A DNA stretch of 64,000 bases, taken from NCBI RefSeq assembly GCF_000426465.1, contig NZ_KE384527.1, forward strand, positions 62,001 to 126,000, in the 5' to 3' direction. Shown here piece after piece: positions 1-49,247 of this stretch. The position numbers and the translations under genes were made by a program. The stretch's first letter is position 1, and each line of letters begins with the position of its first letter. A model generated the notes under the pieces. The model was not told the DNA's origin. It searched no databases and saw nothing but the letters and a program-made list of their open reading frames with translations. The stretch comes from Epilithonimonas caeni DSM 17710 (GTDB lineage Bacteria; Bacteroidota; Bacteroidia; Flavobacteriales; Weeksellaceae).

Positions 1-684
1 AGAGATCAGCATATCTAGTTTTTTATTTAAGGAGACTTCTTCATTATTGTCGCTGACCTTCTGAACCTCCTCCTTACTTTTTTCTAAATAGTATAAAACT
101 TTACCATTATCCCGGCCCTGATAAAACGGGGTCAAATTATAATATATCAAAGAAACCTCATAATACCTTGTATCGGCGTTAGGAATAAGCATTGCATATT
201 TTAAAGCCTTTTCATACTCCTTCAAACTTTCTTCATTTAGCCCAAGGTTTTCATATAAAGTGGCTCTGGTTCCATATAAAGTAGATAATATCTTATAATT
301 CTTCTGGTTGAGAGCCAAATCTCTAACCCTATCAGAAATTTCCAAAGCTTTTTTATAATCATATGTTTGAGAAAATACAAGCATCATATTCTTGGTGGCT
401 ACTAATTCGCCTTTCTCACAGCCTATCGATCTTGAAAGGTTAACAATCTTTTGAAGCACGTCAATCGCCTCTTTGCTTTTCCCATCACTATTAAGAGAAA
501 TAGCCTTATCCATCATTTTTGTGACCTTCTCATTCCCTGGACATAAAATGTTATTTGCGTTTATCATTATTGATAAAAAGAAAAACAGTAAAAATATACA
601 TATATAAGATAATCGTTGAAAGCTTGTACTACTGATTTTTCCCATTTTTGAATGAAACTTTGGAAAGGATAATTTTAGAATCAT
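1..684 (-). CDS. TPR-repeat protein, 3' end beyond window
   Basis: This reading frame is open for 228 codons from an ATG at 684 down to base 1, so the C-terminus is missing. An alternative ATG at 645 would place a hydrophobic stretch nearer the N-terminus. After that segment comes a helical region with TPR-like units (A-I-D-V-L-Q-K-I-V, K-A-L-E-I-S-D-R, S-L-K-E-Y-E-K-A-L-K-Y-A). Secreted or membrane TPR proteins of this kind in Flavobacteriia often end in a transmembrane helix and a LuxR-type helix-turn-helix. That part would lie outside the window, so a regulatory role is inference. It is divergent from the surface-protein locus that begins at 1091, a typical arrangement for a local regulator. 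Confidence 0.75.
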   Translation of the reverse strand, partial: MILKLSFPKFHSKMGKISSTSFQRLSYICIFLLFFFLSIMINANNILCPGNEKVTKMMDKAISLNSDGKSKEAIDVLQKIVNLSRSIGCEKGELVATKNMMLVFSQTYDYKKALEISDRVRDLALNQKNYKILSTLYGTRATLYENLGLNEESLKEYEKALKYAMLIPNADTRYYEVSLIYYNLTPFYQGRDNGKVLYYLEKSKEEVQKVSDNNEEVSLNKKLDMLIS

Positions 685-1090
685 AGATAATTATTAACAA
701 TTAATTTAAAATGATAAGAGATATTTTTATTTTAAATTACAAACACCAGCGTTGATATAAAGAACTTATTAAAGCGCCTTAAAAGTACAATATTCGGAAA
801 TATTAAAAACAAAAAAAGAGATAGAATAATTTCCGCATTTTACACACTCGAAAATACGCACAGAAATAAAAAAAACACTGATTATCAATATTACTAAATT
901 GTAAAATACACATTTAAGTAAATATAAGAAGATTGACTTACATTAATAATTTCACAAATTATGAATGGTGTGTTTTGCTTCGACCTACGAACCTTCTCTA
1001 TTATTGCACTCGATTCATAAACTTGATATCCATGAAAAAGCTCCGATATCAATTCTCTTATTATTAAAAACAAATAATATAAAAACACAA
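685..1090. other. AT-rich divergent intergenic region
   Basis: This gap separates the minus-strand TPR gene from the plus-strand small secreted protein and must hold both promoters. An in-frame ATG at 965 exists, but the peptide from 965 to 1090 has no signal character and looks like untranslated leader. I see no convincing consensus promoter or palindrome. Confidence 0.4.
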
Positions 1091-1675
1091 ATGATCAAAA
1101 AAAATTCGAAGGTACTTCCTTTTCTTACAAGAAGGATGCACCTTCTTTTTTTGGTCTTCTTTCTTTTGATTTCTGTGATGTCAAAGGCGATTTGCAAGCC
1201 GGAAGATGTATGTTACAATGACACCAACAAACAAGAAAAACAAGGAACGATCTATGTCTCAGAAGGTACTACATTGTTTGTCGCAGAGGGCACAATCACA
1301 TCCCTGCAAGTACGTGTACATAATGATAAGGTAAGCAAGGTCCAACTAAAGGCCATTAAAAGAAAGAATGCAGAAAAACCAAAAGCCATTAAAAGACGGA
1401 CAATAAAAGTTAAGCATCACCCTTCTTTACCATCTGTTGAGACTATTTCACCAACCATACCCAAACATAGCTGGGACCACTGGAGAATCATAAGCAAACA
1501 GGTGTCCACAACTTCCAATATCAGCTTCAAATACGTTGCTGCTGTACCAGATGCTACATTCATTAATGTGATATTAATATTCATAGCCATATTGACAGTG
1601 GTCTATCAGAGACATATTCTCAAAACATTACTTCTAGGAACTAATTTTCAGCGCCCTCCACCTTCAGTAGCGTAA
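1091..1675 (+). CDS. Small secreted protein with RPPP tail (cassette 1)
   Basis: The product is about 194 residues from the ATG at 1091. I chose this start because it gives a classical signal peptide (K-K, then a long hydrophobic run ending near S-K-A-I-C); the frame stays open upstream to an ATG at 965. The mature part has an I-Y-V-S-E-G-T-T motif, a Lys/Arg-rich stretch, a late hydrophobic segment (L-I-F-I-A-I-L-T-V-V) and ends R-P-P-P-S-V-A. The protein at 48609-49247 has the same order: signal, I-Y-V-x-D/E-G-T-T, basic stretch, A-V-A/A-A-V-P region, R-P-P-P near the C-terminus. Both genes stand directly upstream of a QVGIN surface protein. I know no function. The late hydrophobic segment might anchor the protein in a membrane. 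Confidence 0.7.
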   Translation: MIKKNSKVLPFLTRRMHLLFLVFFLLISVMSKAICKPEDVCYNDTNKQEKQGTIYVSEGTTLFVAEGTITSLQVRVHNDKVSKVQLKAIKRKNAEKPKAIKRRTIKVKHHPSLPSVETISPTIPKHSWDHWRIISKQVSTTSNISFKYVAAVPDATFINVILIFIAILTVVYQRHILKTLLLGTNFQRPPPSVA

Positions 1676-1826
1676 CTATGTATTGACAAGATTCTGCTCT
1701 GCCCTACTTATGATCTAATGACCAAGCCTCTGTCATATCATGTGACATAAGGCATTGCATGAATACCGTACAGAAAGAACTCCGCGACGGAGTAAAAAAC
1801 ACAATTACAAATATAAACGCTATAAA

Positions 1827-3794
1827 ATGATCAAACAAATATATACCGGAACAGCACTCATCATATGCGGTGCCGTTTTCGCCCAAGTAGGTATCAATAC
1901 CGATACACCTTCCGCTACCCTGGATGTAATGGGAAAACCTACGGAAGTCTCTACTATGGATGGAATTATTGCCCCAAGGATAGAAGGAGCACAGTTAAGG
2001 GCCAAGACCTATACCCCTGAGCAAACAGGAGCACTGGTATATGTCACAGTGGCAGACACAGCTCCCGATGGACAAACCATTGATGTTATCACTACTGGTT
2101 ATTACTATTTCAACGGGATCAAATGGGTCAGCATTGGGTCAGGAGCAGGAGGAGGAGGAGACACGAACATCTATAACTCGGATGGCTCACTGACCGGTCC
2201 GGGAGTTTCCCGCACACTTACATTGAACGGAAAATCATTGGATTTTGTAGGAGCAGAACGAACGACTTCTTGGGATTCCGAAGGAAGAATATATCAAAAA
2301 TCCAATGATCCTTCAGCCGATGCTGTGATGGGATTTCGTGCGGGAAATGCCAATCTATGGATACAACAATGGCACGATGCCGATGCTTGGATAACAGCAA
2401 CCGGATCCACTACCCAGCTTGGGTTGACCACTCACTATACCAACGACCCGGCGCCGATCACTCTATCGACAAGCCCGGGAGGCAATACTCCCGGAATAGA
2501 GAGAATACGGATTACAGGAGAAGGAAATATTGGTGTAGATACTCCCGATCCAACAGAAAGATTTGATAACGCCGGTATCACAAGACTGAGAAACCTTCCT
2601 ACAAACGGTGCAACCAATGCCATCAACACAACCACTGATGGCGATATTTCTGCTGCACAAGATCAGACTTTTACAGCAACCAGAACCGTAGTAGCAGATG
2701 CCAACGGGGTATTGGGGTCCGTGGCAGGTTTACCTGTAAACCCTGTGAACATCTACAATGCCAACGGTTTCCTTACAAGTGCACGTACATTGACGAATAG
2801 TGGTTTTGCTCTTACTTTTTTAGGGAGCAACCAGTCTACAACATTTTCAAGTGCAGGGGGTATTCGGCAATTTGGTACGGCAGGGATCAAAAGAGCTGAT
2901 ATAGTATTGACAGCAAATGACAATAATGGAGATGCGGCAAATTCTACCATGAGTATATATCAGGATGCCGAGAGCGCTGGACAAATCATTGTCGGAAGTG
3001 ATTCCCGTGGGTTAACCATAGGCTCGAGATTTACAACTCAATCAGCACCAATAAAATTTGAAACGAGCGCAGGAGGAGGTGCTAACAGCATCGAAAAAAT
3101 GCGGATAACAGGGGAAGGAAATATAGGCGTAGCAACAGGTACGCCAACGGAAAAACTTGATAACAACGGTATCACAAGACTGAGAAATCTTCCGCAGAAC
3201 GGGACAGCTAATGCCATCTATACCATGCCGGGAGGTGCGGCCTCTACTAACCAGGATCAGACCTTCACAGCTACCAGAACTGTGGTGGCAGACGCCAATG
3301 GGGTGCTGGGATATGTAAATGCCCTTCCCTCTGATGCAGGAACCACCAAAGTCATCGTAAATGTAAGTGTGCCAGGAACCCAAAATCTGATGAATGCATT
3401 TAGCCCTCCCGTTACCGGACAATTTACCAATGAAAGCATAGACACCTATAATGCCTGGACCAACAATGTCTTTACAGTTCCTGCCAATTTAACTGGTCTT
3501 TATAGTGTTGTAATGCAAAACTCAAGTTCACATACAAGTACCGGAACTGCAACTCCCACATGGTCCACAATCGCCTTTTACGAAAAAAGTACTGATGGCG
3601 GAACAAACTGGAGCGAGTTGATGAGGCATACCTATTCTAATCTTGCGGGTACAATAGTAGATAACGGTAATATCGTGTATTGGACAGGTTTTCTGAATGC
3701 AGGAGATCAGCTTAGGGTTCGCCTCAACTGCAATTCGACCACCGACAACATTATAAAGAATGGTGGTATTACCATCACAAAAATCGCTCAATAA
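1827..3794 (+). CDS. QVGIN-type surface protein with two long tandem repeats
   Basis: Translation is called from the ATG at 1827, which starts a signal peptide M-I-K-Q-I-Y...V-F-A followed by Q-V-G-I-N-T-D; the frame is open upstream to 1755, but that part is not signal-like. The product is about 655 residues. After an N-terminal module (G-A-L-V-Y...Y-Y-F-N-G-I-K-W) come two units of roughly 190 residues, at about 114-305 and 308-503. Each starts N-I-Y-N-x-x-G-x-L-T, contains R-I-T-G-E-G-N-I-G-V and I-T-R-L-R-N-L-P, and ends Q-D-Q-T-F-T-A-T-R-T-V-V-A-D-A-N-G-V-L-G. The last 150 residues look like a C1q/TNF-type jelly roll (F-T-V-P-A, then ...R-V-R-L near the end). This suggests a trimeric fibre-like extracellular protein. 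There is no T9SS sorting domain, so the export route beyond Sec is unclear. Confidence 0.8.
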   Translation: MIKQIYTGTALIICGAVFAQVGINTDTPSATLDVMGKPTEVSTMDGIIAPRIEGAQLRAKTYTPEQTGALVYVTVADTAPDGQTIDVITTGYYYFNGIKWVSIGSGAGGGGDTNIYNSDGSLTGPGVSRTLTLNGKSLDFVGAERTTSWDSEGRIYQKSNDPSADAVMGFRAGNANLWIQQWHDADAWITATGSTTQLGLTTHYTNDPAPITLSTSPGGNTPGIERIRITGEGNIGVDTPDPTERFDNAGITRLRNLPTNGATNAINTTTDGDISAAQDQTFTATRTVVADANGVLGSVAGLPVNPVNIYNANGFLTSARTLTNSGFALTFLGSNQSTTFSSAGGIRQFGTAGIKRADIVLTANDNNGDAANSTMSIYQDAESAGQIIVGSDSRGLTIGSRFTTQSAPIKFETSAGGGANSIEKMRITGEGNIGVATGTPTEKLDNNGITRLRNLPQNGTANAIYTMPGGAASTNQDQTFTATRTVVADANGVLGYVNALPSDAGTTKVIVNVSVPGTQNLMNAFSPPVTGQFTNESIDTYNAWTNNVFTVPANLTGLYSVVMQNSSSHTSTGTATPTWSTIAFYEKSTDGGTNWSELMRHTYSNLAGTIVDNGNIVYWTGFLNAGDQLRVRLNCNSTTDNIIKNGGITITKIAQ

Positions 3795-3826
3795 GTATAA
3801 AAAATACCAATTAATAAAAACACATT

Positions 3827-3985
3827 ATGCCAATTTTACACAAGATCAAAGCCTATCTCTATGATCCTTTATGACCAAAGATAACCCAACAACCAGCGTT
3901 TAGCATCAGTGAGCGCTCACTCTCTGTAAAGCAGATATGCGAAGCAGCGGTCAACCGTGGTGGTGCAGATGTAACGGCAGCAGCC
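3827..3985 (+). pseudogene. Disrupted N-terminal part of the DUF4469-type gene
   Basis: The ATG at 3827 opens M-P-I-L-H-K-I-K-A-Y-L-Y-D, which is how I recall HU-like/DUF4469 proteins starting. It meets TGA at 3872. A second frame then reads T-K-D-N-P from 3871, and the first frame resumes as S-E-R-S-L-S-V-K-Q-I-C-E-A-A-V before the ATG at 3986. This looks like two small deletions whose frame effects cancel. The family start is recalled, not searched. Confidence 0.5.
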
Positions 3986-4555
3986 ATGGAACATGCTACA
4001 GAACTCTTCCTGAAAGAGATGGCTTATCAGCTATGTGACGGCTATTCCATAAACACGGGTTACTTCACAGCCGGAACACAGATCCGTGGAGTGTTTGACA
4101 GCCCTACGGAGACCTTCAGCAATCCGAAACACAGCATCCTGTTCCAGTTCAACCAAGGCGAGAAGCTGAGAGCAGAAATCCCGAATATCGAAATCAGTAT
4201 CCTGGGTGTGGCCGATGCTACATCTGCCATATTGCAGGTAAAAGATGTGAAGAGCGGCACCATAAACGACCTTCTGACACCAGGGCGTAACCTGAAGATA
4301 TCAGGAAGCAAGATCAAAGTGGCAGGAGAAGACAAAGCCAACGGCATCTATTTCGTGAACACAGATACCGATGACCGTACGCAGGTAGAACTAAGCGATG
4401 TGGTAAACAACAATCCTTCTGAGCTCATTATCATCGTCCCTATCCTCTCTGCGGGTACATACAGGTTGGAAGTAGTGACGCAATTCACATCCAACAGTAT
4501 TTTGTTGAAAGAGCCCAGAACGGCTGCTTTTGACAAGATCCTTACAGTAGCATAG
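3986..4555 (+). CDS. DUF4469-like protein, HU-like N-terminus truncated
   Basis: The intact frame gives 189 residues. Residues 1-50 match the end of an HU/IHF-like DNA-binding fold as seen in Bacteroidota (M-A-Y-Q-L-C-D-G-Y-S-I-N-T-G-Y-F). Residues from about 75 to the end match the DUF4469 beta domain (L-T-P-G-R-N-L-K-I-S-G, N-N-P-S-E-L-I-I-I-V-P, A-G-T-Y-R-L-E-V-V-T-Q). The family normally has about 50 more N-terminal residues, and these are present upstream but out of frame or behind a stop. The protein lacks a signal peptide although its neighbours are secreted. Either a shortened protein starts here or the gene is decaying. It is probably co-transcribed with the gene ending at 3794. Confidence 0.6.
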   Translation: MEHATELFLKEMAYQLCDGYSINTGYFTAGTQIRGVFDSPTETFSNPKHSILFQFNQGEKLRAEIPNIEISILGVADATSAILQVKDVKSGTINDLLTPGRNLKISGSKIKVAGEDKANGIYFVNTDTDDRTQVELSDVVNNNPSELIIIVPILSAGTYRLEVVTQFTSNSILLKEPRTAAFDKILTVA

Positions 4556-4579
4556 ATATGAGCCTCCTTATTGGCTGCC

Positions 4580-4645
4580 ACAATACTAGGCTATTAGTGT
4601 ATTTCATACGCTCGTATTGGTGTATACAATACGAGGCTATTGTAC
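4580..4645. repeat. Imperfect direct repeat with a hairpin
   Basis: The string ACAATACTAGGCTATTAGTG at 4580-4599 is nearly repeated as ACAATACGAGGCTATTGTAC at 4626-4645. Between them CTCGTATTG (4611-4619) pairs perfectly with CAATACGAG (4627-4635). No T-tract follows, so it is not a standard terminator. Confidence 0.6.
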
Positions 4646-4673
4646 ATACCAATAGAGAACAGAAGAATAACTG

Positions 4674-4741
4674 AACGTAATCATATTCACTTGTGTTGAG
4701 CAGCCGGAAATTAAAGAAGACATTTCGGCTGTGATTACGTT
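4674..4741 (+). other. Predicted structured RNA leader element
   Basis: AACGTAATCA (4674-4683) pairs with TGATTACGTT (4732-4741), and inside it CAGCCG (4701-4706) pairs with CGGCTG (4726-4731), extended by AAA/TTT. The helices abut on the 3' side and leave a 17-base bulge on the 5' side. It lies about 300 bases upstream of the giant adhesin gene. The rest of the gap 4556-4922 shows no gene. Confidence 0.5.
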
Positions 4742-4922
4742 AATTATTAACAGACCCAGTCTAATAAAAGTATCTTTTAAGGATCAAACGGCTTACCCAG
4801 GTGAGATAATCAAAACATGATGAATAGTACCGGATTGCAGGCTCTTGTCGCAAAATCCTGCAAGTAAAAAAAATCAATTATTAGAACAATGAAAAAATAA
4901 ATAGTCCATTAAAACATGAATT

Positions 4923-5051
4923 ATGAAAAACGACCTCCCGCATAAGTTCCAACGGAGTTTCAAAAACAAAAAGCTATTCCTGCTAACTATAGACGGCAAG
5001 ACCATTGGTACATTACGTCTTATTAAAAATCTAAATAAACACAATATATGA
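4923..5051 (+). CDS. Possible 42-residue ORF coupled to the adhesin start
   Basis: An ATG at 4923 opens 42 codons (M-K-N-D-L-P-H-K-F-Q-R-S-F..., then L-F-L-L-T-I-D-G-K-T-I-G). Its TGA at 5049-5051 overlaps the ATG of the next gene at 5048 in an ATGA arrangement, which is the layout of translational coupling. The peptide is basic and has no signal sequence. It resembles nothing I recognise. It may be a real small protein, a leader peptide that sets translation of the adhesin, or chance. Confidence 0.35.
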   Translation: MKNDLPHKFQRSFKNKKLFLLTIDGKTIGTLRLIKNLNKHNI

Positions 5052-8000
5052 TGAACAATTTTTTTAAACTCAATCTATTTGGGCAATCCCATCGTAAACA
5101 TAGCGGGATTCCCAAATTACAATTATTGTTATTCTCGATGCTGCTATTCGCAGGTATATCATATGTCCGGGCACAGTGCAATACGGTATGCAACAGCAAT
5201 TATGGCCTCAATTCCAACAATGACGCCTCCACTATTGAGTATGATAATATAATATCAGCCTCGGTTACTAACGCAGTCAGAGAGTCTGATGGTACTTTTA
5301 AGATATGGGGATACGGTACGGCTGCTAATGGTTCGGCGAATTTACTCAGTCCCACTATTATAAACAGCACTAATTATCCGGGGTTGCAGGGTACTGTTCT
5401 GAAAGTCGCTTTAGGGGGAACATCCGGGCCTTCTAACCAATCCGTTTTACTAACAACGGAAGGTTTATATGCCTGGGGGACTGCTGGCAATTTTATACCA
5501 ACTGCTCTTCAACCTAATGCTGCTTTTGGCAGGGTGAACACATCAGGCAGTACTTATGGTCTGCCTCCAGGTGTAGAGCCACAGCAGGTTAAAAGCCTTA
5601 TGGGTACACAATCAGCTTTAGCATTATTGACCTGCAGCGGAGAGGCATGGGTATTGACAAAAAATGCTGCTTTAGCAGGCGCAGGGCTGACAACTGCAAA
5701 TAATAATTGGAATCGTGTTACTATCTCAGCTCCAGGTAACCCTACACTGGATAATGTGATTGCCTTTAGAGGTTCAATGTCTTCTTTGATGGCCTTACGC
5801 GCTGATGGTACGCTATGGACATGGGGAGTTAGCTTTTTAGGAGATGGTACAGCCTCTACAACCAGGAGCAGAGCAGAGCAAATGACTTTGCCAAATGCTT
5901 CCGGTACCATCAAAATGATTGGTATGGCAAATAGTGGTTCTTATTATGTATTATATACCGATGGCAATCTACATTCTATGGGAAATAACTCTTCCAGAGA
6001 ATTAGGTGATTGGACAACTACAACCAGATCAACCTGGATACAACCCAGATACACTTCGGCTTCGGGAGCGGCAATGAATAACATTAAATGGATCTCACCT
6101 ACTGAACATCATGACGGTTACCCATCAATCAATGCACTTACAACTACCGGACAAGTGTATAACTGGGGACATAACTATCAAAGTAAGCTTAGGTCTGGTG
6201 GAGGAACTTCTTCAACTATTGACCCGGGCAGTCCTACTACAGACCGGATGCTTGCAGTAGAATCTGGAGGTGCACAAACTATTGTTATTAAAGCCTGTAC
6301 ACAAAATTTTGGTTTCGCAGGAAATCAGTATTATGGCAGTATGGGTGATGGGTCTAATACTATCAATGTAACAAGAGTTCCCTATAACTACAGTACAGCA
6401 CCTGTCAATGTCTGTGGAGCAAATGCAATGACAACAGCAGGTGCTCCTGTATTCAATGCCGGCTTGCCTACAAGCAGGTGTAGTGGTGCCGGTACGGTAA
6501 CCTATACCGCAACGTCTTCCGGCGGTACTGTTTCTTACAGCCTCTCGCCAGCTGCTGCAGGTACTATCAATACTTCTACAGGGGCAGTTACCTATAACGC
6601 AGGCTGGTCGGGAACGGCTGTTATAACAGCAACCGCCAATGGTGGCTGTGGTACGCCGGAAACGGCAACGTTTACAGTAACTGTAGCCGCAACGCCTGCT
6701 ACTCCGGTATTTGATACTGCGTTGTCACCACAAAGATGTACTGGTGTCGGTATGGTAACTTATACAGCCACATCTGCCAATGCAGACAGCATCACGTACA
6801 GCATTGCCAATACAGGAACAGGAACACAGCCAACCATCAACCCTGCCACGGGTGAGGTAACCTATACCGCTAACTGGAACGGTACCTCAACGATCACTGC
6901 TACAGCAACCGGATGTAGCACAACTGCATCTTCCACTTTCACTGTAAGTACGGCAGCCATCCAGGCAGTAGCAGATGCTGCTTCGGGACAGTCTGCCACA
7001 CCACTGGCAATCAATCTTCTGGCCAATGACCTTTGTAGCCCAGACCCTACTACCTTAACCATTGTTACGCAACCAGTGAACGGTACTGTGCAGATTGGTA
7101 CAAATGGTAATGTGACCTACTTGCCAAATGGTGATTTTGCAGGAACAGATACATTTGTTTATCAGGCATGCACAGATCCTTTAGGCGCATGCAGTCAGGC
7201 TACGGTCACTATCACTATTGAGGCAAGCCTGACTGATGTATGTAGTACTGCTGGTTTGCCAAAAACATATTATCTGCCATTTCCGGAAAATGCAGAATTA
7301 AAAAAGGCGCTCTTAAGTGCAGGCAATGTGTCGACTAACACCGCCAACGCAAGAAAGATCATTGGTGTGAGAACCAATTACTCTAATACAGTTATCTACT
7401 ATGACCATTGGGAAGATGGGTATGAGCCTGTAGCAGGAAGCCGTACTCAACCTACCACAGAAGTCTGGGGAGATGGAGACACCTCCAATGGTGTAGCGCC
7501 TGGGTACCCGTCAGACATTTTTACGGAAGGAACCATCATTACAATAGATCAGACCTACGCATACAGAACGGGTAATGGCAGAACTCCTACTGATGTTGCA
7601 ATACAATATGACGGCAGGGACAAGATATATTCTAACAAATTACTGACTCTTACCAAAGTTACCGGTGGTGACGCAACTTTTTCAGTACAGAACACCAAAG
7701 GGAATGTGATCGATACAAACAAGTTCGGACGTTTATTCGTGGTTCCTTTTGGAGAAAATATTTCAACTTTACAGAATCCCGCCATTGCAACTACAGTATT
7801 CAACTATACCTCTCTGTTTGTAAGAGCTGCAGAAGACGGAACTGTAGTACAGCTGGATTATAATGGAGACGGTACAGTAGATATAACATCTCCTACACTT
7901 TCCGAAGGAATGGTATGGTTCTATGAAGGGACAGCTTCCTCGCCCGGCGTAGCAGCAGATGTAAACAAGGCCAATGACATCAAATCCGGTGCGGTGATCA

Positions 8001-10171
8001 CCAGCAACAAACCGGTAGGTGTAGACCTTGCTTTTGGAGGAATTGACAATTATGGAACCAGAAATATACCGTTGCTGCCAGGAGATTTCTACGGAAGTAC
8101 ATACTATTCTCCTGTTTATACAACTTTAGCTTCCGCTCCGGTATATGCCGTATTCACGAACAGTTTAAATGAAACTATAACAGTGAATTGGAAAAATGGA
8201 CTTGGAGGTAATGGCAGCATCATAATTCCTGCCAAGGGTTATACATCTTTGGAGATGAATCAAGCCACTGCTTATAAGTTTGAGAGTGTCAACGGGAAAA
8301 GCTATACAGCTGTCACAATAGTAGATGCTGATGCTAATGGTTTAGCTTATGACTGGGCATTTAATATGATCCCGGAAAATCAGCTAACCAACTTTACAAC
8401 AACAGCGTGGGCTCCCGGTATGGCCTCTGGCGGAGCAGCTAACCCGGTATGGATCACTCCAACAAAGAGTACCACAGTATATGTCAAGTATAGCGGAAGC
8501 GTCATTACCACAGCACCGGGATTGACAAGTCCTTGCGGGTTGAAGTATGATGTGGCCTATACGCTCTCTGAACTGCAAGCCCAGAAGGTTTTTACCAGCA
8601 CAGGAAACAGCGGTATGTCTTTTTTTACCTGTGACGGGACACCTATCTCCGCTGCGTATGGTCAGGATTCATCTGTTGCTGCAGTAAGCGGGACTACTAC
8701 ATTGGATGCAGGATTTACATTAGACCCTCAATGTATAGATTTTGTAATATTTGCAAACGATGACAGATCTCAAACCTATCCTAACATCCCTGTAACTATA
8801 GATATTCTGGGCAATGATATAGGAAGGGTATCAACTAATACCGTTACCATAACAACTCAACCATCAAACGGAACAGTGGTAACCAATCCGGACGGGACGG
8901 TCACCTATACTCCGAATGCTGGATTTTCAGGGACAGATACATTTAATTACCAGGTTTGTAACTCGGACAGATCATTATGCAGCACCGCTGTTGTAACCGT
9001 AACCGTAGGCTGTCTTGATGCTGAGATGAAGCATATCCTTACAGGGAAGATATTTGACGATGCTAACAGGAATGGTATCTATGAAAACGGAGAAGACGGA
9101 ATTGCACATACCGTTAATCTGTATCTTGATACTAATGGTAATGGCATCTTAGATCCTTCTGAAACCACTCCGGTACAATCGGTAACGACAGATAATACCG
9201 GTGCTTACATATTCGAGCGTGATACGCCTGCACCAACTACTCAGGCATTGCATGATTTTGCTACAGTCAGCTATAGTGCTGGAACAGGATGGTCCACAAA
9301 CTGGATAGAAGAAGGAGAAACAACATCTCCATCTGCAGGGAACATACAAATAGTGTCAGGTGAGCTTCGTATTACAGGTAATACCGCCGTAGCTGTCAGA
9401 AGATCTGTTAGTGCACCAACTACTAATGCCTTGTTGTCATTTGATTACAGAACTGCCAACCTGGATGGTCTCCCATATAAAACACTGTTAGTAGAGGTAG
9501 CTCCAGCTGCTACCGGCCCCTGGACAACTCTTGGCTACTTATATACTACTACAGGGTATACAAACGGGAAAAAGGTTTATAATATTCCGTCCTCGGTTGT
9601 AAGTGCAGGTATGACCATTCGTTTTAGAACAACAGGAGCTGGCAATCATTTCTTCTATATTGATAATGTAGCGGTACAGTCTATACCTACTGTTAATTAT
9701 ATTGTGCAGCTTGCAGAGCCTCTGCCTGCCAACCGCTATCAGACTTTGCCTGTATTGCCGCAGAAAGATTATGCAGTGGCATTTAGCGGTTATAAAACCA
9801 GCTGTTCAAATAACTTTGGATTAGCAATCATAGCAGCAACTGCTTGTTACAAGCCTGGTATGACATCAGGGACGGCATTAGATACTAAAGTAGGCATCTC
9901 TGCAATGGGAAGAGCCGGATCTACAGATGCCGACAACTGGCCAATGGTTAGAAAAGGAGGCTGGTTGGCTTTAGAATCTAAGACCAAAGCTTTTGTTCCG
10001 AACAGGGTAGCCTTCTCAAGAGGTAATCCTGTGGGAATTGCACCGGCCAACTTTGTAGAAGGAATGATGGTATATGACATCACAAACAAATGTCTTAAGG
10101 TATATACCCAGAAAGAAGGAGACCCTGCAATGGCTTGGCATTGTGTAACCACACAAGCGTGCCCAGACTAA
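5048..10171 (+). CDS. Giant multidomain surface adhesin (RCC1-like, Ig-like, SdrD-like)
   Basis: The product is 1707 residues with an extended signal peptide ending near R-A-Q (residue 43). Residues about 75-440 carry RCC1-like units (A-D-G-T-L-W-T-W-G, T-T-G-Q-V-Y-N-W-G). Two Ig/PKD-like repeats follow at about 466-640 (A-P-V-F-N...S-R-C-S-G, then T-P-V-F-D...Q-R-C-T-G). Cadherin-like Big_9 domains lie at about 640-727 and 1228-1321 (P-N-G-T-V-T-Y-T-P-N style, F-S-G-T-D-T-F). A large unassigned domain fills 730-1228. An SdrD-B-like segment starts near 1328 (F-D-D-A-N-R-N-G-I-Y-E-N-G-E-D-G), interrupted by a beta domain (1398-1548). The C-terminus (G-M-M-V-Y-D-I-T...C-L-K-V-Y) shares the Y-D-T...W module of the neighbouring proteins rather than a T9SS sorting domain. 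It is probably an exported adhesin. The substrate is unknown. Confidence 0.85.
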   Translation: MMNNFFKLNLFGQSHRKHSGIPKLQLLLFSMLLFAGISYVRAQCNTVCNSNYGLNSNNDASTIEYDNIISASVTNAVRESDGTFKIWGYGTAANGSANLLSPTIINSTNYPGLQGTVLKVALGGTSGPSNQSVLLTTEGLYAWGTAGNFIPTALQPNAAFGRVNTSGSTYGLPPGVEPQQVKSLMGTQSALALLTCSGEAWVLTKNAALAGAGLTTANNNWNRVTISAPGNPTLDNVIAFRGSMSSLMALRADGTLWTWGVSFLGDGTASTTRSRAEQMTLPNASGTIKMIGMANSGSYYVLYTDGNLHSMGNNSSRELGDWTTTTRSTWIQPRYTSASGAAMNNIKWISPTEHHDGYPSINALTTTGQVYNWGHNYQSKLRSGGGTSSTIDPGSPTTDRMLAVESGGAQTIVIKACTQNFGFAGNQYYGSMGDGSNTINVTRVPYNYSTAPVNVCGANAMTTAGAPVFNAGLPTSRCSGAGTVTYTATSSGGTVSYSLSPAAAGTINTSTGAVTYNAGWSGTAVITATANGGCGTPETATFTVTVAATPATPVFDTALSPQRCTGVGMVTYTATSANADSITYSIANTGTGTQPTINPATGEVTYTANWNGTSTITATATGCSTTASSTFTVSTAAIQAVADAASGQSATPLAINLLANDLCSPDPTTLTIVTQPVNGTVQIGTNGNVTYLPNGDFAGTDTFVYQACTDPLGACSQATVTITIEASLTDVCSTAGLPKTYYLPFPENAELKKALLSAGNVSTNTANARKIIGVRTNYSNTVIYYDHWEDGYEPVAGSRTQPTTEVWGDGDTSNGVAPGYPSDIFTEGTIITIDQTYAYRTGNGRTPTDVAIQYDGRDKIYSNKLLTLTKVTGGDATFSVQNTKGNVIDTNKFGRLFVVPFGENISTLQNPAIATTVFNYTSLFVRAAEDGTVVQLDYNGDGTVDITSPTLSEGMVWFYEGTASSPGVAADVNKANDIKSGAVITSNKPVGVDLAFGGIDNYGTRNIPLLPGDFYGSTYYSPVYTTLASAPVYAVFTNSLNETITVNWKNGLGGNGSIIIPAKGYTSLEMNQATAYKFESVNGKSYTAVTIVDADANGLAYDWAFNMIPENQLTNFTTTAWAPGMASGGAANPVWITPTKSTTVYVKYSGSVITTAPGLTSPCGLKYDVAYTLSELQAQKVFTSTGNSGMSFFTCDGTPISAAYGQDSSVAAVSGTTTLDAGFTLDPQCIDFVIFANDDRSQTYPNIPVTIDILGNDIGRVSTNTVTITTQPSNGTVVTNPDGTVTYTPNAGFSGTDTFNYQVCNSDRSLCSTAVVTVTVGCLDAEMKHILTGKIFDDANRNGIYENGEDGIAHTVNLYLDTNGNGILDPSETTPVQSVTTDNTGAYIFERDTPAPTTQALHDFATVSYSAGTGWSTNWIEEGETTSPSAGNIQIVSGELRITGNTAVAVRRSVSAPTTNALLSFDYRTANLDGLPYKTLLVEVAPAATGPWTTLGYLYTTTGYTNGKKVYNIPSSVVSAGMTIRFRTTGAGNHFFYIDNVAVQSIPTVNYIVQLAEPLPANRYQTLPVLPQKDYAVAFSGYKTSCSNNFGLAIIAATACYKPGMTSGTALDTKVGISAMGRAGSTDADNWPMVRKGGWLALESKTKAFVPNRVAFSRGNPVGIAPANFVEGMMVYDITNKCLKVYTQKEGDPAMAWHCVTTQACPD

Positions 10172-10184
10172 TAAATTATTTATC

Positions 10185-10213
10185 ATCCTGAGATTGTTAA
10201 ACAATCTCAGGAT
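10185..10213. repeat. 29-bp perfect palindrome after the adhesin gene
   Basis: ATCCTGAGATTGTT (10185-10198) and AACAATCTCAGGAT (10200-10213) are exact reverse complements around a single A. It starts 13 bases after the adhesin stop and ends 22 bases before the next start at 10236. No T-run follows on the plus strand, so it is more likely a processing or stability hairpin than a strong terminator. Confidence 0.8.
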
Positions 10214-10235
10214 ATTAAATCAAAAAACAAAAAAA

Positions 10236-10754
10236 ATGATAAAAAATATTATAACCACAACCTCTCTGTTGGTTGCAATTTCTACAAGTGCACAAGTCGC
10301 TATAGGCAAAACCGAGATCTCCAATCCTGATGTCTCTCTGGAATTTGCCAATACGGAAAACAAAGGAGTGATACTCCCCTATGTGGAAACCAAAACCGGT
10401 ATCACAGAGAACGGATCGATCATCTATGACATCACAGACCATAAGGTAAAATATCTAAAGGACGGAAGCTGGTTTGACCTTTCGGTAGATACGACAGGAC
10501 AAGCTGACCTGTCCATACAATCCACAAAAACCGAGCAGGCAACCGCAAAGACCGTGATCGGAGCAGACGGGGCAACCAATAATACATCTGGCATCCTTGT
10601 CCTTTCTGATACCAACAAGGCCATGATACTACCAAAAGTGGCGAGCCCACACCTGAACATCATCGATCCCGCACCGGGAATGATTGCCTATGATACGAAC
10701 AAAAGACAATTGGCCGTATACAATGGCAGTGTCTGGACATTCTGGAAACCATAA
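10236..10754 (+). CDS. Small QVAIG-type secreted surface protein
   Basis: The start at 10236 gives a signal peptide M-I-K-N-I...S-T-S-A before Q-V-A-I-G-K. The 172-residue product has two copies of a short beta module: G-S-I-I-Y-D-I-T...V-K-Y-L-K-D-G-S-W and G-M-I-A-Y-D-T-N...L-A-V-Y-N-G-S-V-W. The same module occurs in the other cassette proteins at 1827, 5048 (C-terminus) and 46743 (N-terminus). It is probably an extracellular partner or subunit of the larger proteins. Its gene ends just before a clear terminator, so the operon probably ends here. Confidence 0.75.
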   Translation: MIKNIITTTSLLVAISTSAQVAIGKTEISNPDVSLEFANTENKGVILPYVETKTGITENGSIIYDITDHKVKYLKDGSWFDLSVDTTGQADLSIQSTKTEQATAKTVIGADGATNNTSGILVLSDTNKAMILPKVASPHLNIIDPAPGMIAYDTNKRQLAVYNGSVWTFWKP

Positions 10755-10766
10755 GGTATCACAATG

Positions 10767-10811
10767 CCGTTTTACTATGATGCTAAAGCCCTATAGTAAA
10801 ACGGTATTTTT
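10767..10811 (+). terminator. Rho-independent terminator of surface-protein operon 1
   Basis: CCGTTTTACTAT (10767-10778) pairs with ATAGTAAAACGG (10793-10804) and is followed by a T-rich run. The 12-bp perfect stem closes the transcript of the QVAIG gene. Confidence 0.85.
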
Positions 10812-10836
10812 CTTACGCCTAAAAAGTATTAGAAAT

Positions 10837-11070
10837 ATGAAGATCACAAAGCAATTGATGGAAAATGCCTATCAACTAATAGGAAAGACCAAAGAAGAGA
10901 TATACACTCTTCTGGGCACTCCCGACTATTTGGAACTTGAAGGGACACAACTGATCTATATAATAAGGAACTGGTTCAGAAGAAATGCCCTGATACTGGA
11001 ATTGGATACAGACGATACCGTCGAAAGTGCAGAACCGGTCTATGATATCGAAATATCTAAAGCGGGATAA
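10837..11070 (+). CDS. Small BamE/SmpA-like-fold protein
   Basis: From the ATG at 10837 the product is 77 residues. The segment L-I-G-K-T-K-E-E-I-Y-T-L-L-G-T-P-D fits the helix-turn of BamE/SmpA-like folds (G-x-T-x-x-x-V-x-x-L-G-x-P), followed by beta strands with alternating hydrophobics. There is no signal peptide or lipobox, so it is probably cytoplasmic and not a true BamE. It sits after the terminator of the surface operon and ahead of the helical 69-residue protein. I infer that it belongs to the same locus but cannot assign a role. Confidence 0.6.
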   Translation: MKITKQLMENAYQLIGKTKEEIYTLLGTPDYLELEGTQLIYIIRNWFRRNALILELDTDDTVESAEPVYDIEISKAG

Positions 11071-11127
11071 TGTCTTAAAATCCCCACACTCTAAAAAACT
11101 TAAAATAAATAAACCACTGAAAAAATA

Positions 11128-11337
11128 ATGACAATAAGAGACCTTATCTCCGAATTGGAAAATGAATTGTCCAACATAGCGATCCCCGAGGAAAAAGCCA
11201 TAGAGATCAAAGCCTATCTTGACAAAGACAAGATGAACCATCACTCTAAGCAGACAATCATCAACATCTTGGTATCAATTCCCGCAATCAGTAGAAGTGA
11301 AAGACTCACAAGTATTCTTGGTCAGCTTTCCTTGTAA
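11128..11337 (+). CDS. Small helical protein (cassette 1), paralogue of 46365-46607
   Basis: This is a 69-residue, mostly helical soluble protein with no signal peptide. Its middle part aligns without gaps to the 80-residue protein at 46365-46607: L-D-K-D versus I-D-L-D, and KQTIINILVSIP versus IQSIVDIVISLP. Because the two genes lie in two loci that also share the RPPP and QVGIN proteins, it probably belongs to the same system. The function is unknown. Confidence 0.6.
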   Translation: MTIRDLISELENELSNIAIPEEKAIEIKAYLDKDKMNHHSKQTIINILVSIPAISRSERLTSILGQLSL

Positions 11338-42551: not shown

Positions 42552-42998
42552 ATGGGAACTTTTAGACAAATCTATTATCATATTGTTTTCGCAACAAAAC
42601 ATCGGAAACCAACAATCAACGAGAAAAATGAATCAGAACTTTATAAATATATCTGGGGAATTATTAAAAATAAAAAATGTCAATTATACAGAATCAACGG
42701 GATGCCAGAACACGTTCATATCTTTTGTGACCTTCATCCAAGCATCAATCTAAGCGATTTGGTAAAAGATATAAAAGTCGCAACAAATATTTGGATAAAG
42801 CAATCAGGATTATTTCCTGAGTTTGTTGGTTGGCAAGATAGTTATGGTGCATTTACATATTCGGTTAGAGAAAAAGACATGGTAATTAATTATATTAAAA
42901 ATCAAAAAGAACATCATAGGAAACAAACATTCGAAGATGAATTTAGAAGATTATTAAATGAACACGGAATTGAATTTGATGAGAAATATTTGTTTTGA
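42552..42998 (+). CDS. REP-associated tyrosine transposase (Y1/HUH, IS200-like)
   Basis: The 148-residue product has the HUH motif H54-V55-H56 (N-G-M-P-E-H-V-H-I-F) and the catalytic Tyr114 in N-Y-I-K-N-Q-K-E-H-H. These belong to single-strand DNA transposases of the IS200/RAYT group. No tnpB is present. Flanking hairpins of one family on both sides (copies B and C), plus a third copy 9 kb away, favour a RAYT that mobilises REP elements. It seems intact and could be active. Confidence 0.9.
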   Translation: MGTFRQIYYHIVFATKHRKPTINEKNESELYKYIWGIIKNKKCQLYRINGMPEHVHIFCDLHPSINLSDLVKDIKVATNIWIKQSGLFPEFVGWQDSYGAFTYSVREKDMVINYIKNQKEHHRKQTFEDEFRRLLNEHGIEFDEKYLF

Positions 42999-45701: not shown

Positions 45702-46265
45702 TTAAAGCGTTTGGGTCATTTCTGTCACATTGGCAGGGTTGTCGGTTGCCTTAATTGTGATCTTATCCCCTGCAAGATCTTTGTTACCTTCTGTTGCTGT
45801 ATAGATCCACTCGAAGCCGGAATCTACCGCTGAACCCTCTTCTACCAGACTGCCATCTTCATTTTCTATTGTTACAGTGACCGCTTTTACTGCAAAATCA
45901 TCCAGTACCTTTATTCTAATGACATCTCCTTTTTCACCTGTATAACCAGACAGGTCTATGCTTTCTATGTCCGGTGCCTTCAGGAGATCGGCAACCGCTA
46001 CATTATATATACTGATGCCTTTGGATGCGTCTGCTGCGGCAGAGTACATTTGGTTTTGATCCGGATCTTTCATAACCGATTTGGCGTAGAGGGTCGCTTT
46101 TTGGAATTTGCGCTGATGCTCTTTCTGATTCTCTGTATAATCTCCGACTCTTTCTCTTGGTGCTCTGGAGACAATGGTTTTGCCGTTTCTCTGGCTGAAG
46201 ACGATCAGGTCGCCTACTTTGCCACTAAGCCCATGTGTGATGATGTTATTTTTACTTTCTGCCAT
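45702..46265 (-). CDS. Uncharacterised protein with G-K-V-G-D N-terminus and Ig-like C-terminus
   Basis: From the ATG at 46265 (M-A-E-S-K-N-N-I) the product is 187 residues with no signal peptide. The N-terminus H-G-L-S-G-K-V-G-D-L-I-V-F-S-Q-R-N-G-K resembles DUF6266-like proteins (G-x-x-G-K-x-G-N-x-V). The last 85 residues look like an Ig-like beta domain (V-K-A-V-T-V-T-I-E-N-E-D-G-S-L). In locus 1 the DUF4469 protein occupies a comparable niche as a non-exported helical-plus-beta protein. The function is unknown. Confidence 0.65.
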   Translation of the reverse strand: MAESKNNIITHGLSGKVGDLIVFSQRNGKTIVSRAPRERVGDYTENQKEHQRKFQKATLYAKSVMKDPDQNQMYSAAADASKGISIYNVAVADLLKAPDIESIDLSGYTGEKGDVIRIKVLDDFAVKAVTVTIENEDGSLVEEGSAVDSGFEWIYTATEGNKDLAGDKITIKATDNPANVTEMTQTL

Positions 46266-46364
46266 CGTTTGTGATTTTAAAGGATTAATAAAATATTTGA
46301 AATCGTATCTAGTTAAATAATCAATTTTGATTATTAAATCGTAAATCCGCAATATCTTTCATGT

Positions 46365-46607
46365 TTAAGTAAGGATCAGTTCTTTCTTAATCTCTGTAAA
46401 TGGTGCAAAAACATCATTATCCGGTAATGATATTACAATATCAACTATGGATTGTATAGACTGGTAGTCCTTAGTATCTAAATCTATAAGGGACTGAAGT
46501 TCTTTCATTTTTAGACGTTGCCCTTTTAAGTTATTTAAAATCGCAGAAATTGAATCCAGAAAACCATCTAAGTTTTTTATCCGAACTGATTGTACTTGCT
46601 TATCCAT
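46365..46607 (-). CDS. Small helical protein (cassette 2), paralogue of 11128-11337
   Basis: This 80-residue soluble helical protein has a core of IQSIVDIVISLP preceded by L-I-D-L-D. These align without gaps to the 69-residue protein of locus 1. It lies after a terminator that closes the QVGIN gene. The function is unknown. Confidence 0.6.
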   Translation of the reverse strand: MDKQVQSVRIKNLDGFLDSISAILNNLKGQRLKMKELQSLIDLDTKDYQSIQSIVDIVISLPDNDVFAPFTEIKKELILT

Positions 46608-46742: not shown

Positions 46743-48533
46743 TTAATGTTTGTTAATACCATTATGCTCAGCTTTTTCAAGAGCCCAGGCAAAAGCATTG
46801 GCTGTGAATATTGAATTATATACATTCATCTCATATGCAGCGGCACCATTTCCGTAATTAGGTTTAAAAACCGGAAAATTGCTGGCGTTTAAAAAGAATG
46901 GACAAACGGTATCTGAAGTTCCACCATTATTTGAATTGAAACCACCGTCACCTACCCAGATAAAATTGAGAGTATTATGCCTGAATGCAGTAACACGACC
47001 AACAGTTCCAGAAGGTGATGCCGTTGAAATATTAGTATCTCCTGTATAAACAGTGATTTCGCTGGAAGGCAATCCCGTGGCATAAGCTGTTGAGGAAGCA
47101 TCTTCTCCCCATTGTAACCCTCTGATATCACCAAAAGGACCATTCAAAATAGAATCATTTGTCAATGGTAATTTGTATAATGCTCCTGCACTATTTACGA
47201 CCCCTGTAGATACTGAAGCATCAAAGACGGCTCTTAAAATATTCTGTGCACCGGAAGGACTTTCAACAAAAGCTAAAACGACACCTCCTTTTGCGAGATA
47301 GTTTGCTATTACCTGAGCTTCAGCAGCATTTGCTCCCCAAGCATATCCTATTACAATAATATCTACTGGATTACTACCTGTGGTCCAGCTGGTAAGCTGA
47401 GCTGCCGATGGTGAATCTGTTCCGTTTATAATCTGGTCCCATCCTTCATATTTAACTACACTATTTGCTAGAGTACCGTAATTTGTTGCAGTTGTAATTA
47501 GTCTATTTGAAGCTGCGGTACCTGACAAATTATAACCAAACCCATCGGCATCTGCCCCTATTGCTAATAATCTTTTTTTAGGGATAACAACGATCACATT
47601 GACATTACAGGTTGTAGAAACGCCACCCTGACTATCCGAAGTTATCGTTAATGTTTTGGCTGTGGTAGAAGAAGGGGCTCCTGTTCCGTTTAGAGTAATA
47701 TTCTGATTACCGGTTGCTGTAAAGGTTCCTGAACCACTAAATGAAATCCCATCTACTGTATTAGTAGTAACAGTATAGCTTCCCAATGCCGTCACATTTA
47801 CCGGTAAGGTAATGGTATTATTTGTTGTAAGTGCTGTGCCGACTTTATAAACTCCGTTCACTATTGCCGAACCACAACTCATTGTATAAGTCCCTGCCGC
47901 TGACAATACGGTTACCGTTCGCTCAGGTGTACAAATAACATCTATACCGTTTGCATTGATTGCCAAATTATCTGTTTGTACAGCTACCGGAGTTCCTTGT
48001 CCTGTGGCCTGTATGGTGTAAGAACCTGTGTTAAGAAAAGTGCCGGATGCAAAGAAACTATAACCATTGGTTGTAGTTGCCAGAAAAGTATATTCTCCTG
48101 CTTTGGTGACCGTCACAGGAATCGAAAGATAATTAGAGGCAGTAAGCTCTCTTCCTTCCACATAAGTTCCATTAACCTGCAGAGCTGTACAGTCGAATGT
48201 GAATTGAGATTTACCCAACTTACCACAAAGGCTTTTCCATTCCTGTTCAGCATTATTCCAATAATTATAGCAGTCTTCTGTTGTATTATAAATCAGCAGA
48301 CTGTTTTGTGAAGCCCCCATATTCGGAGTGAGCTGTGCATCCCGTTGCGCTTCGGTATAACGCTGAATGATGATACCGCTGTATTTATCAGGATCAGCAC
48401 TTGCGGGGTCCATTCTTTCAGAAATATGTAGTCCTGCATATGCATTAGGTTTATCTGTGTTGATGCCCACTTGTCCATATATATTGATGCTTGTCAAAAA
48501 CATCAATATGAACAAATTATATATATTTTTCAT
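46743..48533 (-). CDS. QVGIN-type surface protein with PKD-like repeats
   Basis: The 596-residue product has a signal peptide ending N-I-Y-G before Q-V-G-I-N-T-D-K-P. The N-terminal module contains S-L-L-I-Y-N-T-T-E-D-C-Y-N-Y-W and W-K-S-L-C. Two Ig/PKD-like repeats follow (F-D-C-T-A-L-Q-V-N-G-T-Y, then M-S-C-G-S-A-I-V-N-G-V-Y). The C-terminal half is a Rossmann-like domain resembling glutamine-amidotransferase or DUF4350-type folds (L-L-A-I-G-A-D-A-D-G-F-G-Y, I-I-V-I-G-Y-A-W-G, Y-L-A-K-G-G-V-V-L-A-F-V-E). It is preceded by the RPPP protein, as in locus 1. Confidence 0.8.
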   Translation of the reverse strand: MKNIYNLFILMFLTSINIYGQVGINTDKPNAYAGLHISERMDPASADPDKYSGIIIQRYTEAQRDAQLTPNMGASQNSLLIYNTTEDCYNYWNNAEQEWKSLCGKLGKSQFTFDCTALQVNGTYVEGRELTASNYLSIPVTVTKAGEYTFLATTTNGYSFFASGTFLNTGSYTIQATGQGTPVAVQTDNLAINANGIDVICTPERTVTVLSAAGTYTMSCGSAIVNGVYKVGTALTTNNTITLPVNVTALGSYTVTTNTVDGISFSGSGTFTATGNQNITLNGTGAPSSTTAKTLTITSDSQGGVSTTCNVNVIVVIPKKRLLAIGADADGFGYNLSGTAASNRLITTATNYGTLANSVVKYEGWDQIINGTDSPSAAQLTSWTTGSNPVDIIVIGYAWGANAAEAQVIANYLAKGGVVLAFVESPSGAQNILRAVFDASVSTGVVNSAGALYKLPLTNDSILNGPFGDIRGLQWGEDASSTAYATGLPSSEITVYTGDTNISTASPSGTVGRVTAFRHNTLNFIWVGDGGFNSNNGGTSDTVCPFFLNASNFPVFKPNYGNGAAAYEMNVYNSIFTANAFAWALEKAEHNGINKH

Positions 48534-48608: not shown

Positions 48609-49247
48609 TTATGAGAATTTAGAAAATATGGGAGGCGGACGGATGCTGTGAAAATTTGGTATAGATCGAATCTGTGTTGAAGTACTATTTTGGTGAGCTA
48701 TGCTTTTGCCTCCAAAATCAGTAGCAAACTGAACTGTGTCACTTTTTAAAACGGCTAACAGTTTATCACAATTACTGTTGGCTGGTGCGACAGCTGTCAG
48801 AAAATGGTTCGTAAGAAGTGTAAATTTATCACTGTCATTATTGTTTTTAAAAGTAGATTTTAAACTAATTTCATTATCTTTAGATTTAACGATTGTTTTG
48901 CGCTTCTTAGATATTAAAGGTTTTGCACTTTTCTTCGGATGTTTATATCTTAAATCAGCAAAATGTATTTTTGACTTAGTATTTTCTCGTAATCCTGTGG
49001 TTGTAGTCCCGTCTAAAACATAGATGTTATCGGAATAGTCGGAATCATCTAGGTGATTTTCAGAGATTATTTTTGTCCCTTTTGTAATGTATATACTGTT
49101 ATTTTCCCTTTGATAAATCTGGGATTGACCTGGAAAGTAGATGAGAAAGAACAGAAAAATATATACAGCACAAGTTCTCTCAATTTTAAATGCATCAAAT
49201 AAGAGTAGCTGGTGTCTGTAATTTTTAAAATCGTCCTGATGTATCAA
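48609..49247 (-). CDS. Small secreted protein with RPPP tail (cassette 2)
   Basis: The frame has no internal ATG. Translation probably starts at the TTG at 49247, giving 212 residues, though a later start is possible. A hydrophobic segment (Y-I-F-L-F-F-L-I-Y-F) ends in G-Q-S-Q, then I-Y-V-L-D-G-T-T, a Lys-rich stretch K-K-S-A-K-P-L-I-S-K-K-R-K, and R-P-P-P near the C-terminus. It parallels the 194-residue protein at 1091 in every part. The gene lies 75 bases upstream of the QVGIN gene. Confidence 0.65.
   Translation of the reverse strand: MIHQDDFKNYRHQLLLFDAFKIERTCAVYIFLFFLIYFPGQSQIYQRENNSIYITKGTKIISENHLDDSDYSDNIYVLDGTTTTGLRENTKSKIHFADLRYKHPKKSAKPLISKKRKTIVKSKDNEISLKSTFKNNNDSDKFTLLTNHFLTAVAPANSNCDKLLAVLKSDTVQFATDFGGKSIAHQNSTSTQIRSIPNFHSIRPPPIFSKFS

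Follow-up and report, generated by a model that had tools for sequence, protein, structure and literature searches.

Two unlinked loci within a 64,000-nucleotide stretch of the genome of Epilithonimonas caeni DSM 17710 (contig NZ_KE384527.1, positions 62,001–126,000; hereafter the window, with coordinates counted from its first base) each encode a small exported protein that ends close to the residues Arg-Pro-Pro-Pro (RPPP), directly followed by a gene for an exported protein that we term QVGIN; a first-pass annotation of the DNA had described this pairing, and we see it as described. We refer to the RPPP proteins as leaders. On the plus strand, the open reading frame (ORF) of leader 1 spans 965–1675 with a likely start at 1091 (1091–1675), and specifies a signal peptide, an IYVSEGT motif and a basic middle; its RPPP lies three residues short of the stop codon (codons at 1652–1663, the presumed arrest site, judged from their position and from motif conservation across members). 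The QVGIN gene that comes next (1827–3794, plus strand; no Pfam family above the cut-off) has its ATG at 1827, 151 nucleotides past the leader stop. Leader 2 (48609–49247, minus strand), recognised as an ORF and by a family profile match, has its RPPP codons at 48630–48641 (read 48641–48630), from their position a candidate arrest site, and the minus-strand QVGIN gene of locus 2 (46743–48533, assigned from its sequence) has its ATG at 48533, 75 nucleotides past the leader stop. Among window ORFs of at least 60 amino acids, solely these two proteins carry R-x-P-P in their last ~25 residues. The RPPP protein is probably a cis-acting, exported translation-arrest leader of surface-protein operons, resembling SecM and CutF. 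What is computed from the DNA is the motif with its position, the signal peptide, export of the downstream gene product and, as described below, the placement of promoter boxes and the RNA complementarity.

Searches with a single window leader fail to find the other one; they do find further members, including a third in the same genome (C1:597383). A profile built from 10 members from outside the window retrieves both window leaders and nothing else from the 185 window ORFs (E values of 5.8e-23 and 6e-7), which bears out the earlier suggestion that the two RPPP proteins are akin. Family library scans gave rows at chance level only for leader 1 and no family match for leader 2 in the libraries scanned. 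Besides the signal peptide, an alignment of 12 leaders (A1) has an IYVxxGT motif and a middle rich in Lys, and its invariant columns are one Lys and residues 1, 3 and 4 of R-P-P-P, with Ala as residue 2 in one row. No conserved Cys column stood out in this alignment, and no search aimed at CxxxC was made. Of the named relatives of leader 1, the closest comes from Epilithonimonas hungarica DSM 19684 (81% identity; NCBI lineage Weeksellaceae); a scan of a genome collection gave one orthologue for leader 1 and no matches for leader 2.

The A1 profile matches 127 of 296 genomes of the bacterial family, which we infer to be Weeksellaceae, in 15 of 33 genera (E ≤ 0.01; scoring was limited to ≤10 candidates per genome, and chance probably accounts for the weakest matches). 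One genome can hold up to seven matches, so this is a multi-copy family. As the annotation had proposed, the loci are copies of one arrangement, which recurs in many genomes and in which the small exported protein is constant while the large exported proteins behind it vary. In an order-wide sample in which the best ≤7 candidates per genome were scored, so that rare members could be missed, 26 of 395 genomes match the leader profile, 19 of them within the same family. The seven matches outside it cover the N-terminal part alone (one reaching position 162 of 212), and no ORF ending in R-x-P-P was found in the loci fetched from those seven genomes; on these grounds we dismissed a spread past the family, and the leaders appear confined to one bacterial family in the samples searched.

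The span from signal peptide to motif varies little. We evaluated three sets of members: set 1 (60 regions, including 8 of the A1 leaders); set 2, hand-picked from the matches of a profile lacking the last ~35 residues, with set 1 and most short N-terminal-only matches excluded (20 regions including one 10-base filler, thus 19 evaluated; four of the 19, L184, L194, L196 and L197, also appear in the family-wide A1 match listing); and set 3 (60 fetched and 59 evaluated, L275 being without a frame). By a simple rule, 59 of the 60 set 1 leaders have a hydrophobic N-terminal segment. The distance from signal core to motif Arg has a median of 167 residues (quartiles 162–172), and that from IYVxxGT, which a loose pattern finds in 60 of 77 members, has a median of 134 (quartiles 131–142); the stretch from 110 to 30 residues ahead of the Arg carries a mean net charge of +8.2. 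Ratios of nonsynonymous to synonymous substitution rates (dN/dS) of 0.21–0.63 in nine pairs of similar leaders indicate that the leader evolves under purifying selection as a protein.

R[P/A/G]PP stands near the stop codon in 129 of 138 evaluated members (110 RPPP, 10 RAPP and 9 RGPP). By set, it occurs in 58 of 60 members in set 1, within the last ~25 residues (51 RPPP, 6 RAPP and 1 RGPP), in 17 of 19 in set 2 (12 RPPP, 4 RGPP and 1 RAPP; of the two exceptions, L184 stops early and L191 sits close to the end of its contig) and in 54 of 59 in set 3 (47 RPPP, 4 RGPP and 3 RAPP). The 58 motifs of set 1 are spelled by 51 different codon strings, so the amino acids are conserved and not the bases. 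Among other ORFs of at least 100 amino acids in the set 1 regions, 3 of 388 end in such a motif, and these resemble further leaders (L110:5249-5818 on the plus strand, L140:757-1368 and L145:2579-3301 on the minus strand, with RPPP or RAPP ends), which suggests that several leader operons can lie close together. The second motif residue varies among Pro, Ala and Gly, matching known arrest motifs: a 2025 survey places R-x-P-P among arrest-inducing sequences when x is Gly, Ala, Ser or Pro, and notes that the Ala of RAPP is replaceable by Gly and partly by Ser, Asp or Pro (PMC12992588). In the same survey, export signals are enriched among small proteins with RAPP or RGPP near the C terminus, whose genes lie 5′ of sec, TonB-receptor and copper genes; the section on these proteins does not include RPPP (PMC12992588). 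In Escherichia coli, RPPP stalls more strongly than any other X-PPP in one context and ranks with the strong ones in another (PMC4176338), and in a leader reporter in the wild type it causes a pause of about stop-codon strength (PMC8129111).

The product of the gene after the leader counts as exported under a simple rule in 66 of 79 loci; inspection by eye of the 13 others found eight with an intact or a broken signal peptide, four non-exported and one unclear (L185). The targets are diverse: among 62 complete exported downstream products, 18 have a QVGIN-like start and 29 a C-terminal GM-YD...W-C pattern. We dismissed a type IX secretion system sorting domain in these proteins, as none of 61 downstream C-terminal parts matched one of type A or B (NCBIfam, E 0.001; the scan excluded the 1,707-residue protein of locus 1). 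Ten of the 61 C-termini have a weak local match to the profile of BamM (PMC12611786).

Bases 10–30 after the start of the Arg codon (R+10..30) are predicted to pair with the start region of their own downstream gene more strongly than with those of other loci. The pairing tests omit L092, L107, L108, L144 and L185, gaps outside 45–250 nucleotides and orthologue duplicates, which leaves 53 of 79 loci for discovery and 33 of the 54 motif-bearing set 3 members for replication. The discovery loci gave −4.09 versus −3.38 kcal/mol (own versus foreign; z = −3.25, P = 0.0017), and the 33 new loci, with the window of bases fixed, gave z = −2.75 (P = 0.0057). Over all 86 loci, z was −4.58, with 0 of 10,000 permutations as low, and −6.1 against same-letter shuffles; the same position in 112 ordinary gene pairs carried no signal (z = +1.9). 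Window locus 1 ranks first of the 86 in the own-versus-foreign comparison (−10.8 kcal/mol): the pairing computation predicts a start-masking stem whose 5′ arm (1666–1682, plus strand) comprises the leader tail, the stop codon and a few bases past it, and whose 3′ arm (1810–1824, plus strand) lies immediately 5′ of the QVGIN ATG. A ribosome stalled at RxP/P would, given the size of its footprint, partly cover the R+10..30 bases. Cutting the RNA to mimic a stalled ribosome raised start accessibility from 0.56 to 0.63, a change computed without a control that we do not count as evidence.

The placement of promoter boxes would fit one transcript. The −7 box of Bacteroidota promoters has the consensus TANNTTTG; upstream of leaders we counted 41 such boxes versus 24.2 in shuffled sequence, exceeding all 100 shuffles, and between leader and next gene 0 versus 7.1, under all 100 shuffles (the count additionally omits L096 and L103). 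Leader 2 has a −7 box 42 nucleotides 5′ of its ORF; leader 1 has none within the stretch searched. Terminator-like sites occur in just 2 of 65 leader-to-gene gaps, on which count we dismissed a transcription attenuator. From the promoter-box and terminator statistics, the leader and the next gene may be co-transcribed.

We infer that arrest and release in this organism, and the sign of the control that they exert, would run as follows. A promoter 5′ of the leader would transcribe the operon, and the signal peptide could already engage the Sec machinery as the ribosome nears the leader end, where it would stall with R-x-P in the P site and the final Pro in the A site. Without a ribosome, the ~20 nucleotides past the motif would pair with the start region of the surface gene and hide it; a stalled ribosome would cover those bases, leaving the start free so that the surface protein can be made. 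Pulling the chain free would let translation end and the stem re-form. The likeliest input to release may be the export state of the leader itself.

Exported arrest leaders are already known as a kind (SecM, ApdA/P and CutF). Among those that have been worked out, the closest parallel is CutF of the cutFOG operon of Rhodobacter capsulatus: it is exported by way of a Sec signal, its C-terminus is proline-rich but alone is not a strong staller, and a stem masks the start region of the next gene (PMC9973294). It differs from our leaders in using CxxxC to sense copper and in having a copper oxidase as its target, whereas the leaders here have surface-protein targets and are multi-copy. ApdA, ApdP and other RAPP or RGPP leaders are likewise small proteins that combine a localization signal with an R-x-P-P close to the C-terminal end and are encoded 5′ of the regulated gene; in contrast, those described in the sections concerned precede sec, yidC, TonB-receptor, copper or thiol genes (PMC12992588, PMC10951233, PMC10987492). 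SecM of E. coli, as outlined in one of these sources, shares the signal sequence, a C-terminal RAGP-type arrest and a stem over the start of the next gene; it controls secA, and its stem hides the Shine–Dalgarno sequence, whereas here the masked bases surround the start codon (PMC10987492). The NAP-stop and NSP-stop upstream ORFs mentioned in the same source come from the same phylum, Bacteroidota, with another motif and other targets (secDF and secA; PMC10987492). The annotation named no described system with this set of genes; the general kind of leader is described, whereas for this leader family, its targets, its copy number and its main motif we found no description in the openly licensed literature, preprints excluded.

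Several observations count against an arrest leader. The next gene is not exported in four loci (L092, L107, L108 and L144), and L107 is a leader without a surface gene. Seven members deviate from the motif: the end is RPPT in four of them, and KPPP, RSPP or RSPA in one each. Elongation factor P relieves RPPP stalling in vitro, according to part of one report (PMC4176338), and most RAPP-like sequences from E. coli and Bacillus subtilis proteins arrested poorly in vitro in the section of another that treats them (PMC10987492), which means that the motif alone is insufficient and that context matters. For the RNA, just 14 of 86 loci individually fall in the lowest 5% of their own shuffles, and the pairing windows were tuned on the discovery loci. 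Another window in the 112 ordinary gene pairs reached z = −2.74 and R−80..−60 in the leaders reached z = −3.2, so that a z near −3 is not decisive by itself. In window locus 2 we detected no masking stem (−2.9 kcal/mol, rank 54 of 86), and coupling there would need another route. Among the deviating members, the RPPT leaders form a subgroup (L103, L228, L239 and L272); the KPPP leader, L096, precedes a surface gene with a frameshift in the signal-peptide region, a close relative (L105) has RPPP and an open gene, and joint decay of leader and surface gene in L096 is possible.

The complementarity spans the leader tail and stop codon, bases that every terminating ribosome also covers. Plain translational coupling could account for it: any ribosome reading the leader end would open the stem, R-x-P-P would only slow it or set its dwell time, and neither sensing nor regulated release would be needed. 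We consider this unlikely, as it leaves unexplained why the signal peptide is retained, why the span from signal to motif is nearly constant at 167 residues and why R[PAG]PP recurs in so many members. The purifying selection and the predicted export would also suit a working protein, such as a chaperone, adaptor or anchor of its surface partner, for which IYVxxGT could serve as a binding site and RPPP as a C-terminal recognition tag read after export. However, the tail that follows R[PAG]PP can be as short as 2 or as long as 19 residues in set 1 (exactly 3 in 28 of 58), the second residues found are ones that arrest motifs tolerate, and a tag gives no reason to expect base pairing between the codons after it and the start of the next gene; we regard a tagged working protein as quite improbable.

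The annotation had suggested that the leader, the QVGIN protein and a small helical protein possibly belong to one regulated fibre or adhesin display. The large proteins are indeed exported, bear immunoglobulin (Ig)/cadherin- and RCC1-like domains and adjoin the leader, but the helical proteins are missing from nearly all leader regions scanned and the leaders precede very different exported proteins. We find no support for such a role of the RPPP protein, which resembles a cis-acting arrest leader instead; we set that role aside in view of the motif, the complementarity in the RNA and how varied the downstream genes are, and regard the shared fibre or adhesin as very improbable indeed.

If the RPPP proteins are exported arrest leaders, translation arrest would be a routine surface-protein switch in a large bacterial group, beyond secretion and metal genes, and other unannotated small exported proteins beside surface genes may be regulators rather than structural parts. 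A bolder version, tentative and on balance doubtful, is that throughout the bacterial family surface-protein operons carry private nascent-chain sensors. The leader would act as a ruler (~167 residues from signal to arrest and ~134 from IYVxxGT to arrest, with a basic middle), arrest would read whether the chain can enter the periplasm or be captured there, and the surface coat would be switched at translation gene by gene. The family offers more than 100 natural variants of one arrest leader, with Pro, Ala or Gly as the second motif residue and an apparent mRNA partner each, which makes the idea directly testable.

The two loci hold further genes. In locus 1, all on the plus strand, the QVGIN gene is followed by a gene with HU-type and DUF4469 family matches (3828–4555), the 1,707-residue exported protein with RCC1-like and bacterial Ig/cadherin-like domain matches (5048–10171), a QVAIG-type small exported protein, named from its sequence (10194–10754), a 77-residue protein that is weakly BamE-like in the family scan (10837–11070; E 0.08, below the cut-off) and a 69-residue helical protein (11128–11337). 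The frame of the HU-type gene is broken near its start by a stop ~15 codons in; its relatives in L213 and L216 are open. Locus 2 has, on the minus strand, an 80-residue helical protein (46365–46607) and a non-exported protein with a beta-type C-terminal part (45702–46352). One non-exported beta-domain protein per locus had been proposed; in locus 1 this is the HU-type and DUF4469 gene, and in locus 2 the protein has no family above the cut-off. A regulator-like gene 5′ of each leader had also been proposed. We see one in each locus, and a regulator often lies 5′ of the leader elsewhere. In locus 1, a divergent tetratricopeptide repeat (TPR) regulator gene truncated by the window edge (1–684, minus strand) has an orthologue in L213 with TPR and AraC-type helix-turn-helix (HTH) domains; in locus 2, a membrane protein (49367–50356, minus strand) has a weakly HTH-like C-terminal end and a weak sigma-70 region 4 match (E 0.005, below the cut-off).

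The two helical proteins match each other (BLASTP E 4e-6 in one comparison; 12 of 39 residues identical), and both match one shared third locus (E 2.1e-4 and 2.9e-3). They are related, as had been proposed, and by their distribution accessory: of the 23 genomes of the genus, just 3 hold a match to each, and a helical protein occurs solely in the two window loci and L115 across all the leader regions that were scanned. A helical profile seeded with the window pair, L115 and L210 adds L211, L212 and L214. On the 3 of 23 genomes each and the near-absence from leader regions we dismissed the helical protein as a constant core; of the three-gene core that had been put forward, the pair of leader and exported protein recurs.

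Upstream of 77 leaders, the neighbouring gene has TPR_12 in 17 cases, HTH_18 (AraC type) in 13, a phage-integrase SAM domain in 7 and GerE (LuxR) in 6, with the remainder mixed. Across the 77 fetched leader regions, most of which extend ~5–6 kb downstream, the recurring neighbour families are an HIG-type HTH protein (13), an IYSDI-type protein (11) and a tyrosine recombinase (10). The recombinase regions are L098 (a Phage_int_SAM_5/Phage_integrase protein), L102, L114, L122, L124, L125, L126, L131, L181 and L190, several with the gene directly 5′ of the leader, and these enzymes could mediate switching or exchange of surface genes. Small genes that recur 3′ of the surface proteins (L115:2311-3342, L210:8939-10421, L211:6217-7702 and L216:273-1663) encode an HTH protein whose end is weakly resolvase- or IS3-like, the IYSDI-type protein, a BamE-like protein and the helical protein. 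Elsewhere in the window, a small IS200/REP-type transposase-like gene (42552–42998), recognised by eye, lies between sensor kinase and response-regulator genes.

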